A stretch of 40,638 bases of DNA from the IMG/VR virus record IMGVR_UViG_3300046007_008772, positions 1-40,638 of that record; one strand, written 5' to 3'. Below the pieces are notes generated by a model that ran no database searches, was not told the origin of the DNA, and saw nothing but the letters and a program-made list of their open reading frames with translations. The DNA comes from a virus. How positions within the stretch are numbered: position 1 is the first letter of the stretch; every line of letters starts with the position of its first letter. This document shows positions 8,944 to 18,938 of the stretch, one piece after another. A program made the position numbers and the translations under genes.

Positions 8944-9048
8944 TTAGGCGTGGCCTCCGTCGTTGTCGTCATTCCCCAGGGCCAGAAGCGTCACGACCAT
9001 GAAGGCGACCAGCAGCAGCTGAGTCGTTATGACAAAGACGCTGCTCAT
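8944..9048 (-). CDS. 34-residue membrane microprotein upstream of dnaB
   Basis: MSSVFVITTQLLLVAFMVVT..., one transmembrane helix (about 4-25), then an acidic tail GNDDNDGGHA. It has one of the best ribosome-binding sites of the region (GGAGGAAGG, about 6 bases before the ATG), and its stop abuts the dnaB start. It is too short for the usual ORF cutoffs. It overlaps the next, weaker 72-residue ORF in another frame. Function unknown. Confidence 0.65.
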   Translation of the reverse strand: MSSVFVITTQLLLVAFMVVTLLALGNDDNDGGHA

Positions 9049-9187
9049 TTGCGGCCTTCCTCCGTGCGAGGTCCGCGCGGCGACGTTCCCAGCGGTCGCA
9101 GGCGGCGTCTACGAGGCGAAATGTTTCTTCGAGCCATGGTGTGATGTGGTGTTCGGGCGGTGGCGGTGGTTGTGGTTCAGCGGCCAT
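8969..9187 (-). CDS. Hypothetical 72-residue Pro-rich/Arg-rich ORF
   Basis: Starts MAAEPQPPPPPEHH, then a helical, charged stretch (WLEETFRLVDAACDRWERRR). Its ATG overlaps the stop of the upstream small gene by 11 bases, which fits the overlapping style of this operon. It has no visible ribosome-binding site, and about 80 bases of its end overlap the membrane microprotein. It may be real with a long overlap, or end-shadow. It lies just downstream of a TTGGCA-type repeat array. Confidence 0.45.
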   Translation of the reverse strand: MAAEPQPPPPPEHHITPWLEETFRLVDAACDRWERRRADLARRKAANEQRLCHNDSAAAGRLHGRDASGPGE

Positions 9188-9356
9188 GACGAGTTACGGC
9201 TTTCTGTCGTGGCGTGATCTGTTGGCATATGTTGGCAGTTGTAGGCATAGAGGGCAAGGATTTTTTGGGGGTTTTTGGCGAAAAAATGCGGTCGTAGTTG
9301 CGCCGGTAGAGGTCGCCGTTGACCGGCCGCGGGCTGTCCCCTTTGCCGGCGCTCAT
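9177..9356 (-). CDS. Small phage protein with GKGDSPRPVNGDLYRRNYDRIF motif region
   Basis: 59 residues from the ATG at 9356 (ATGA overlap with the upstream gene). The N-terminus SAGKGDSPRPVNG...YRRNYDRIF follows a pattern (GKGD-PRPV...Y-NYDRIF) that I recall from many small uncharacterised phage proteins. The C-terminal half is basic with many Pro/Thr. DNA encoding residues 37-45 contains 10-base-spaced TGCCAA repeats, so this coding end may also carry an operator for the downstream dnaB genes. Confidence 0.75.
   Translation of the reverse strand: MSAGKGDSPRPVNGDLYRRNYDRIFSPKTPKKSLPSMPTTANICQQITPRQKAVTRHGR
9222..9247. promoter_or_regulatory. TTGGCA array upstream of the dnaB genes
   Basis: TTGGCA at 9222 and 9232 and TAGGCA at 9242 are spaced exactly 10 bases apart, the same unit and phasing as the arrays at 16177-16357 and 16680-16715. 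The array lies inside the end of a small coding gene, about 175 bases before the 34-residue gene and dnaB. It could be a third binding site for the RHH protein controlling an internal promoter of the lytic operon. Confidence 0.5.
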
Positions 9357-15974: not shown

Positions 15975-16163
15975 TCAGTTTCCTCCCGTGGTGTTGTTCG
16001 CGATGAACTTGGCGAGTTGGTCTGCGGGTATCCGGCGTGTGCGTTGCCCGAGGGCAATCGACGGCAGCCGGCCTTCTAAAACCCAGAGGCGGGTCTGTGC
16101 ATAGCTCACCCGGAGGGCATTCGCCGCGTCGCGGATCGTGAGCAGTTGTGTGTGGTGTGTCAT
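15975..16163 (-). CDS. HTH protein, excisionase/MerR-like, first gene of the lytic operon
   Basis: 62 residues, MTHHTQLLTIRDAANALRVS, then YAQTRLWVLEGRLPSIALGQ and RTRRIPADQLAKFIAN. This is the HTH_17/excisionase pattern: a winged helix with a wing near RTRRI. It could be Xis (directing excision with the integrase) or a Cro-like switch regulator, as it is transcribed divergently from the RHH gene across a repeat-filled control region and heads the long lytic operon. Confidence 0.85.
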   Translation of the reverse strand: MTHHTQLLTIRDAANALRVSYAQTRLWVLEGRLPSIALGQRTRRIPADQLAKFIANNTTGGN

Positions 16164-16172
16164 AGAAAGGCG

Positions 16173-16357
16173 TTCCTTGGCATTCCTTGGCAACGTGGGC
16201 AAACCTTTTGGGCGACTTGATTCACGAAGTGGGCGTGCATCGGATAGCCAAATAATGCCAAAGACTGCCAACACTGCAAGGATTATTTTTGGCATTCCTT
16301 GGCATGGGGCAAAGTCCCTATTTGACATCCGTTGGCATCCGTTGGAGTCTATTGGCA
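16173..16357. promoter_or_regulatory. Divergent switch region filled with 10-bp-phased TTGGCA repeats
   Basis: Units of TTGGCA or its complement TGCCAA repeat with 10-base spacing in four groups. Group A: TTCCTTGGCA twice in tandem (16173-16192). Group B, inverted: AGCCAA 16246, TGCCAA 16256 and 16266. Group C: TTGGCA 16289 and 16299. Group D: TTGACA 16322, TTGGCA 16332, TTGGAG 16342, TTGGCA 16352. Group D's TTGACA can serve as a -35 box for the RHH gene, so binding would block it. This fits cooperative side-by-side binding of RHH dimers on one face of DNA. Confidence 0.75.
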
Positions 16358-16370
16358 AACAGCAGCACCT

Positions 16371-16628
16371 ATGAGCACCAAGAAGCCAAGATACAAGGAG
16401 GACACCCGCAAGGGCGTCTTCGCCAACCTCAGCACCGACCTGCATGACCGCATGCACCGGCGGGCTGCGGCCGCAGATCACAAAGCCGCCAAGTATGTCG
16501 CCGTGGCGCTGGAATTCTACATGGACCTCGAGGATGCGTTCCAGGGTCCGCTCACCGAGCAATTCCGGGCGATGATTCTGCGCAATGTCGGCGGCATGGC
16601 CGACAGGATGGAAAAGGCGCTCAAGTAA
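16371..16628 (+). CDS. Ribbon-helix-helix DNA-binding protein, probable phage repressor
   Basis: 85 residues. The RHH fold is clear: a short strand KGVFANLS (about 14-21), helix TDLHDRMHRRAAAADHK and helix AAKYVAVALEFYMDLEDAF. A C-terminal helical extension (about 60-85) could make tetramers. It is the first gene of the plus-strand lysogeny module and faces the lytic operon across phased repeats, which also occur after its stop. In the place where lambda-like phages have CI, this is the best candidate repressor; it probably also represses itself. Confidence 0.8.
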   Translation: MSTKKPRYKEDTRKGVFANLSTDLHDRMHRRAAAADHKAAKYVAVALEFYMDLEDAFQGPLTEQFRAMILRNVGGMADRMEKALK

Positions 16629-16679
16629 GTCGCTTAATGACAAGCAATAGCAACAACTTTGCAAATAACACGTTGACAA

Positions 16680-16715
16680 TGCCAACAAACGCTAAAGAAT
16701 GCCATCAAATGCCAA
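16680..16715. promoter_or_regulatory. Phased TGCCAA array before the PEGA lipoprotein gene
   Basis: TGCCAA at 16680, TGCCAT at 16700 and TGCCAA at 16710 lie on one 10-base register (16690 reads CGCTAA, a weak match). The array covers the start of the lipoprotein gene and its likely ribosome-binding site, so a bound RHH protein could tune expression of the genes downstream. A TTGACA box overlaps its left end (16673-16678). Confidence 0.55.
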
Positions 16716-17077
16716 CACGCCTCCTCGCCATCCTAACCGCAGCCGTCCTATCCGGCTGCGCGGCGCCTGAGCCAGATATCCGCCGGCCAACCGCCCGCAT
16801 CGTCCCCATGAAGATCGCCAGCCAGCCCATCGGCGCCGTGGTCTTCCTCAATGGCGAGTACATGGGGCTGACGCCGCTGACCATCCCGGTCGAGGCCGAC
16901 CCGGACGGCAACTGGAGGCATGACGTACGCATCCAGGTGCAGGTGCCGCAGGACAGCAGCATCGAGGACACCTACACGTCCTACGAGGGCTACGCCGTGC
17001 CGCGGCACCTGCTCTTCCGCATCCCGCGGTATGTCCACTGGTACAGCGCGACGCAGCAGCACCGGCCGCAGCTATGA
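16709..17077 (+). CDS. PEGA-domain lipoprotein in the lysogeny module
   Basis: 122 residues from the ATG at 16709; an in-frame ATG at 16679 would add 10 residues of unlikely sequence. MPTRLLAILTAAVLSGC is a lipoprotein signal with Cys17 lipidated. Residues about 36-62 (MKIASQPIGAVVFLNGEYMG, LTPLTIPV) form a PEGA domain, a beta fold found on cell-surface proteins. The rest is beta-rich with conserved aromatics. It would be displayed on the envelope of a lysogen, so superinfection exclusion or lysogenic conversion is a fair inference. Confidence 0.8.
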   Translation: MPTRLLAILTAAVLSGCAAPEPDIRRPTARIVPMKIASQPIGAVVFLNGEYMGLTPLTIPVEADPDGNWRHDVRIQVQVPQDSSIEDTYTSYEGYAVPRHLLFRIPRYVHWYSATQQHRPQL

Positions 17078-17660: not shown

Positions 17661-17706
17661 GGACCGAAGGCTTATGAGTCCCCTGCACTACCGCTGTGCT
17701 ACTCTG
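17661..17706 (-). other. Partial tRNA-Met(CAT)-like segment, candidate attP core
   Basis: Read on the minus strand, this segment has a D-arm with a perfect 4-base-pair stem (GCAC...GTGC, 17699-17685), then a GGGGA anticodon-stem side and the loop CTCATAA (17678-17672) with anticodon CAT, then AAGCC-like sequence to the variable loop. No acceptor stem or T-arm follows, so it is not a whole tRNA gene. It lies about 100 bases before the integrase, where phages keep an attP copied from the host tRNA target. Confidence 0.6.
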
Positions 17707-17740: not shown

Positions 17741-17773
17741 TTGAGTTGATCTGGTTTGATCTGAATTGACTTA
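17741..17773. repeat. Phased TTGATCTG repeats, possible integrase arm sites
   Basis: TTGATCTG at 17746 and 17756 and TTGACTTA at 17766 are spaced by 10 bases; another TTGA starts at 17741. They lie between the tRNA-like segment and the integrase start. They may be arm-type integrase sites or an operator for int. The sequence differs from the TTGGCA arrays. Confidence 0.45.
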
Positions 17774-17807
17774 ATTTTGGCAAAGTTGCCGTCAAAGTTT
17801 GCCAGAC

Positions 17808-18938
17808 ATGCTTTCCGGTGGCAGAGTCTGTCGCATGGACACGCACGACATCAAGGTGGGCGGCATGGCCGGCAAGCTCTACCGCACTGCCGACTCGCCG
17901 CGCTGGCAGCTGGAATTCCGCCACCCGCAGACGACCAAGCGCATCCGCATCTCGACCGGGCTGCGCGACCTCGTCATGGCCAAAGAGAAGGCCAAGGGCA
18001 TGATCACTGATGCCTACCGGGACGGCTTGGCGGCCCTGCGGGCGCACGGCCAGCGGGCGGTTCACAAAACGGTTGGCGAAGCGGTCGATCATTACTTGAA
18101 GGTCGCGCAGATTGACACGAAGCAGACCAATGTCAATCGCCTCCTGCGCATGCTGCGGCTCGTCCTCGGGCAGGACAACGAGCGGGTGCAGGCGCGGCCG
18201 CTGACGGTCATCTCGCCGGACACCGCGGCCAAATACCGCACGACCTACCAGGGCAGCGCCTACACGATGCGCTCGGTGCTTTCCGGGGCGCGCAGCGTGT
18301 TCTGCAATCCGATGGACTGGCGCGGCTTCCCGCTGCCGGACTGCATCAAAGAGTTTGCCGCCATGACCAAGGGCATGAAGGCGCCGGTCTCGACCTTTGT
18401 GCGAATTCCGCCGGAGATACTTGGCAAGATGGATAACTCCAGCAAGGCAATCGGCGGCGCCACGCGGCGGGCATTCCTGCTGACCCGCTACTTGGGCATG
18501 ACGCCCAAGGAGGTCGCCTACTGTCGCAAGGGCTGGATCGAAGACCGCGGCGACCGGCATGTGTTGGTGCTGATTGAGCGGGAGGACGAAGGGCTGACAC
18601 TCAAGACCGGCGCCAAGCGCGGGCGGGTCATGGCGGTGCCGGCGTGGATGGTGCCAGAGCTGCTCGCCGCGGACGACTTCATGGTGCCGGGGCGCACCAA
18701 GGGCATGCGGGTGAAATTCATGGAGCGCAACTTCAACATGTGGGTGCGCGAGTTTCTGCCGGACCGGAGGGCGGCGGCCTACGAGCTGCGCAAGCAGGCG
18801 GGCAGCGATGTGCTGAATGAGACCGGCAGGATCAGCTTGGTGCAGCACATGCTCGGGCATTCCGAGCCTTCGACCACGGCACGTTTCTACGCTGTCTTCG
18901 ACCGCGAGGTGGATCTCCGGGATGTTTGGCACAAATGA
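17808..18938 (+). CDS. int: Tyrosine recombinase (phage integrase) with unusual active site
   Basis: 376 residues from the ATG at 17808; a start at 17835 (MDTHDIKVGG) is also possible. An arm-type N-domain (about 15-70: KLYRTADSPRWQLEFRHPQT, then ISTGLRD), a SAM-like core-binding domain (about 85-165) and a catalytic domain (about 200-365) are present. The C-terminal end has AYELRKQAG (Arg328), LGHSEPSTTARFY with His351 and nucleophile Tyr361. But the first Arg in the GLRxxE motif reads GMTPKE (Thr232), and the usual His before Arg328 is Tyr325. It would integrate the phage at the host tRNA. Confidence 0.85.
   Translation: MLSGGRVCRMDTHDIKVGGMAGKLYRTADSPRWQLEFRHPQTTKRIRISTGLRDLVMAKEKAKGMITDAYRDGLAALRAHGQRAVHKTVGEAVDHYLKVAQIDTKQTNVNRLLRMLRLVLGQDNERVQARPLTVISPDTAAKYRTTYQGSAYTMRSVLSGARSVFCNPMDWRGFPLPDCIKEFAAMTKGMKAPVSTFVRIPPEILGKMDNSSKAIGGATRRAFLLTRYLGMTPKEVAYCRKGWIEDRGDRHVLVLIEREDEGLTLKTGAKRGRVMAVPAWMVPELLAADDFMVPGRTKGMRVKFMERNFNMWVREFLPDRRAAAYELRKQAGSDVLNETGRISLVQHMLGHSEPSTTARFYAVFDREVDLRDVWHK

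Follow-up and report, generated by a model that had tools for sequence, protein, structure and literature searches.

The question raised by this locus is which phage protein reads a series of short repeats, spaced 10 bp apart, that lie between two divergent genes, and what is controlled through them. The window, by which we mean the whole stretch of DNA that was analysed, comprises the 40,638 bp of an IMG/VR virus record. The leftward operon, called lytic in the original prediction, does hold replication genes: it comprises an HTH_17 gene and genes for an O-like replication protein, SSB and the DnaB helicase. The rightward side carries an RHH gene, a PEGA lipoprotein gene and an integrase gene. 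This organization makes it most likely that the window is a temperate phage. The genes around the locus are the following.

15975–16163, minus strand: HTH1 gene (HTH_17, excisionase-like), 62 aa, heading the leftward operon; matches to the HTH_17 and excisionase families.
16204–16240, minus strand: remnant of HTH2, an alternative HTH gene, inside the HTH1–RHH gap; from comparison with relatives.
16371–16628, plus strand: RHH gene, 85 aa, the proposed reader and repressor; sequence similarity.
16709–17077, plus strand: cargo gene, here for a PEGA-domain lipoprotein, with other genes at this place in relatives; domain match and relatives.
17799–18938, plus strand: tyrosine integrase gene; domain match.

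A unit scan of the gap between the HTH_17 and RHH genes confirmed the 11 TTGGCA-type units first reported there, in groups of two, three, two and four, the second being inverted. The exact 10-base registers claimed for them hold inside each of the four groups, but not across groups: a single register for the whole gap is rejected, the distances from one group to the next being 59 bp (16187 to 16246), 23 bp (16266 to 16289) and 23 bp (16299 to 16322). The 207-bp gap contains 8 exact hexamers, compared with a shuffle mean of 0.5, and 3 exact pairs at 10 bp, compared with a shuffle mean of 0.0008; as none of 5,000 dinucleotide shuffles reaches either value, a chance origin of the units is rejected. 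Among 12 representative relatives, the same-strand GGCA–GGCA spacing in the gap peaks at 10 (23 pairs, the runner-up having 6), and the same analysis of 12.6 kb of control DNA gives no such peak. The four groups are named A to D.

16177–16192, plus strand: array A, TTGGCA at 16177 and 16187, just before the HTH1 start; kept in relatives.
16246–16271, minus strand: array B, inverted, AGCCAA at 16246 and TGCCAA at 16256 and 16266, in the leftward promoter region; kept in relatives.
16289–16304, plus strand: array C, two units, at 16289 and 16299; confined to a subclade with RHH at least 95% identical.
16322–16357, plus strand: array D, TTGACA at 16322, TTGGCA at 16332, TTGGAG at 16342 and TTGGCA at 16352, over the RHH promoter; kept in relatives.

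The TTGACA of the RHH promoter, likely its -35 element, doubles as the first unit of array D, in line with the earlier placing of this array over the RHH gene's own promoter. The -10 elements of the B and D promoters are poor sigma-70 matches, and a promoter scan finds only the promoter at array E, described below. In three relatives (L020, L021 and L024) the RHH start codon is about 35 bp after the start of the TTGACA, and the RHH mRNA is possibly leaderless or nearly leaderless in these phages. The symmetry of the units is limited to TG....CA, a clean palindrome being rejected, so that the DNA by itself is no proof that the reader is a dimer. Phased repeats had been taken as the mark of an RHH protein; they are compatible with one, but excisionase-type HTH proteins use such repeats too.

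The system had been described from the switch gap only. It is not confined to this gap, as two further arrays were detected by the unit scan and shuffles, one over the promoter of the cargo gene and one, 7 kb from the switch in the window, which contains the sole exact TTGGCA-N4-TTGGCA pair outside the gap in the whole record.

16680–16715, minus strand: array E, TGCCAA, CGCTAA, TGCCAT and TGCCAA at 16680, 16690, 16700 and 16710, 10 bp apart, over the cargo promoter.
16673–16700, plus strand: promoter-like TTGACA-16-AAGAAT of the cargo gene; consensus match only.
9222–9247, plus strand: array F, TTGGCA, TTGGCA and TAGGCA at 9222, 9232 and 9242, 10 bp apart, in an intergenic gap of the replication module.
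8969–9187, minus strand: small gene downstream of array F; gene context.

The slot after the RHH gene behaves as a cargo slot under array E, its content varying from the PEGA lipoprotein to unrelated small proteins.

About 40 distinct contigs, all from one phage family, were recovered when viral contigs were scanned with RHH, HTH1 and HTH2. In nearly all of these relatives arrays A, B and D occupy the same places, and most of them also have array E. Array F lies about 6–8 kb from the RHH gene in nearly all relatives with enough sequence, while the genes that flank it change; it is degenerate in L020 and L021. A protein-free DNA pattern of three phased units matched at least 119 stretches, and among the matches listed 109 are in the F-array context of this family. 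Homologous phages that keep the RHH gene and lack the repeats would have spoken against the original prediction; relatives with a close RHH protein keep phased repeats in the same gap, and this conservation agrees with a phage switch region built on putative phased operators. The family is common in IMG/VR, yet a search of 50,697 phage records gave no match to its RHH protein, integrase or switch gap DNA, and the matches to its terminase were distant and limited to two records. Among bacterial genome contigs, no relative was found by RHH or integrase.

A first candidate reader is the HTH_17 protein, HTH1 or HTH2. It could act as a directionality factor of the Apl/Cox/Xis kind, binding head to tail with one monomer per repeat and repressing both early promoters and its own gene, with the RHH protein doing another job. 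Besides the family matches of HTH1, this reading accounts for the position of array A right before HTH1 and for the presence of HTH1 or HTH2 in every relative with a complete gap. In the arrays, direct repeats follow each other at about one helical turn. This spacing is a hallmark of excisionase-type HTH proteins (PMC7498355) and counts against an RHH reader. Apl-type proteins bind repeats of this kind, and phage 186 has seven, with a 10–11 bp spacing, between pR and pL (PMC7498355). However, the repeat sequence does not go with the excisionase-like gene. HTH1 and HTH2 are 31% identical and their recognition helices differ; the window and L006–L009 carry HTH1 and L010–L014 carry HTH2, while RHH is 95–100% identical across this set (95–96% identical to the window's in L010–L014) and the array units are the same. 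The F-array consensus is aTGCCNACA with HTH1 or HTH2 alike. On the RHH tree, the HTH label changes five times by parsimony, and at least two of these changes are forced by supported branches. An exchange of HTH proteins that leaves the arrays unchanged favours RHH over HTH as the reader. In L006, L008 and L009 the HTH2 remnant shares the reading frame of HTH1 and might lengthen that gene.

The arrays do change in phages with a different RHH beta strand. The strand is RRSVHANLS in L215–L219, residue 17 being H and not the F or Y seen in the others, and in these contigs arrays A, B, D and E read TGTCCA/TGGACA instead of TTGGCA, still 10 bp apart. The distant array F has also become TGTCCA/TGGACA in the four of these contigs that are long enough. 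HTH2 has diverged as well in this clade (55–60%). These observations suggest that the change at RHH residue 17 and that of the arrays are linked, the link being a correlation drawn from one evolutionary event. The switch of all arrays, distant F included, together with F17H favours RHH as the reader. A second case, L043/L225, keeps the HTH1 recognition helix (SYSTARKWVLDGRLPS) nearly unchanged while array D is altered and array E is not found, which argues against an HTH_17 reader; RHH is 43% identical there, and L225 retains TTGGC units in part. A weaker sign for RHH may come from residue 15: Gly15, at the position of CopG R4, accompanies T as the second base of the A and B units with either HTH type, a pattern that fails for array F. 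The original preference for RHH as the likelier reader thus gains support from the indifference of the arrays to the HTH swap and from their change with the RHH beta strand. In another relative, L039, the N-terminal half of RHH is the usual one, the C-terminal half is different and the arrays are kept, which suggests that the C-terminal part was exchanged.

The integrase side carries repeats of another sequence. At 17669–17704 the minus strand resembles the 5' half of tRNA-Met, ending at the CAT anticodon loop; this stretch, about 95 bp before the integrase ORF and also present in L019, is a candidate attP core. Other 10-bp-phased repeats (TTGATCTG / CCAGATCAAA) are located at 17741–17772, just upstream of the integrase, and also in L018, L019, L225 and L039; they are possibly integrase arm or excisionase sites. 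The phased repeats of the putative attP region differ from the A–F units, while Apl binds one kind of repeat at the switch and at att. On balance, we consider it unlikely that the HTH_17 protein reads the arrays.

The same region bears on the idea that the arrays are not phage operators at all but integrase arm-type sites, replication or partition iterons, or sites for a host factor. Phased 10-bp repeats are known from integrase arms and iterons, array F is in the replication module and an integrase is present. However, the arrays are at promoters in five places, the attP candidate is elsewhere and bears other repeats, for which reason arrays A–F were rejected as integrase arm sites, and sites for a host factor would not change in concert with a phage RHH beta strand. 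The record has no AAA_31 (ParA) match, which speaks against partition sites and also against a plasmid-type partition system with RHH as the centromere binder. Altogether, we regard sites of these kinds as very improbable.

It could also be that both proteins act on overlapping sites, RHH as a lysogeny repressor and HTH_17 as a Cro/Cox-like antagonist on the same 10-bp arrays. The two genes are always together and flank the arrays, and the units come in two orientations (A, E and F versus B and D). No sequence feature of a second reader is seen, however, and the units are unchanged by the HTH exchange, so that we give little credit to this arrangement. We favour instead, with a probability of roughly 60%, the reading in which the 85-aa CopG/FitA-type RHH protein is a phage-wide repressor that reads arrays A–F in this phage family. 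In support of RHH as the reader, the same arrays are found at several places, including F, 6–8 kb off, where the neighbouring genes change. In support of RHH as the repressor, the record has no match to a CI-type repressor with the HTH_3 and Peptidase_S24 models, so that for these models the original statement that there is no such gene holds; a lambda-like CI/Cro switch, with an HTH_3 repressor (often S24), is absent by the same models.

The assignment of the 85-aa protein to the CopG/FitA-type RHH proteins is of moderate strength. The profile gives a collinear hhalign match to CopG over residues 16–52 (P 3.8e-4) and a match to FitA (P 0.004), and the Pfam FitA-like_RHH model is matched with an E of 0.06, in 4 of 15 relatives. 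There is no sequence match to Arc, and a PDB sequence search with the RHH profile gave nothing. AF2 monomer models made with 15 and 20 relatives show helices at 22–33 and 38–57 and no strand, with a pLDDT of 59, which makes a PDB fold search of the model meaningless; such low confidence is not surprising when an obligate dimer is modelled as a monomer from a shallow alignment. The case for an RHH reader is weakened by the modest sequence support for membership in the RHH class, which structure prediction did not confirm, and by the contrast between units that are only partly palindromic and an RHH dimer that is two-fold symmetric. RHH residues 15 and 17 align with CopG R4 (Arg4) and T6 (Thr6), and these two CopG residues contact bases (PMC8251345). 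A role of RHH as a type II antitoxin is rejected, as the genes after it vary among relatives and there is no constant toxin partner.

In the mechanism that we propose, RHH dimers would bind 8-bp elements, in this phage TGCCNACA (TNGGCA when read on the opposite strand), spaced by one helical turn; neighbouring dimers would then share one face of the DNA and could bind cooperatively. The leftward early promoter carries array B and RHH's own promoter array D, and dimers at each turn would cover both promoters; array A precedes the HTH1 gene, array F the replication (DnaB) sub-operon and array E the variable cargo gene. In a lysogen, the replication genes would be repressed by RHH, which would also limit its own synthesis through D and adjust cargo expression through E; binding to F would bring the DnaB sub-operon under its control as well. 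The gene at the head of the leftward operon encodes the Xis-like HTH_17 protein, which would be made early and oppose RHH, in the role of Cox or Apl. The complete scheme would make RHH the sole master repressor, with no HTH repressor beside it and with an exchangeable Xis-like HTH protein as its partner. RHH would coat the phased arrays of the switch, of the replication module and of the cargo gene, and one or two residues of its beta strand (15 and 17) would determine the immunity type. This scheme is more tentative, and we place it a little below even odds.

That no phage switch with this layout had been described, as was first stated, is too strong. In phage 186, the direct repeats between pR and pL are bound by Apl (PMC7498355); this resembles the present locus, as does P2 with Cox, in having direct repeats one turn apart between early promoters and an excisionase-like HTH protein in the switch. 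Apl reads the 186 repeats both at att and between promoters that face each other, whereas the arrays described here appear to follow RHH, outlast the replacement of the HTH gene and occur also in the replication module. In SSV1, F55 is described as a small RHH protein that maintains lysogeny by binding tandem repeats, located within or beside early promoters and the promoter of its own gene (PMC5569661). A small viral RHH protein holding lysogeny on tandem repeats is what is proposed here, but SSV1 is an archaeal virus with archaeal promoters and two tandem repeats per site, and the present phages have longer arrays at 10-bp spacing, distributed over several modules, and an HTH_17 partner gene that diverges from RHH. 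Given the repeat layout of 186 and the action of F55 on tandem repeats, the layout is not unprecedented, and its novelty, as judged from the open-access literature (an older description may exist), is the combination of known features.

Other systems share single traits with this one. In P22, Arc and Mnt belong to a secondary immunity region, beside a CI-type main repressor. The P22 switch uses RHH repressors, Arc and Mnt (PMC10516654), but our protein has no sequence match to Arc; YosL of SPbeta is a predicted Arc-type RHH protein in a lysis–lysogeny system (PMC10516654). CopG of pMV158 is likewise an RHH repressor, with dimers lined up next to one another on the operator (PMC8251345), but it controls plasmid copy number. 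Cluster A mycobacteriophages have one repressor and genome-wide stoperators, the sites drifting with the repressor (PMC6550527). In this they are similar to what we propose, one repressor with many genome sites whose sequence moves with it; they differ in their HTH-domain repressors and single 13-bp sites, mostly off promoters, compared with an RHH-type protein and 10-bp arrays at promoters.

If our reading is true, RHH-based lysogeny control would be added to bacteriophages, where HTH repressors are the rule. The F17/TTGGCA and H17/TGTCCA variants would then offer a ready test of how a two-strand DNA reader is recoded with its operator set following, and they predict two immunity groups. Finally, three TGCCNACA units at 10 bp are also present, in other contexts, in contigs outside the family (L085, L090/L100/L145, L093, L171 and L172).
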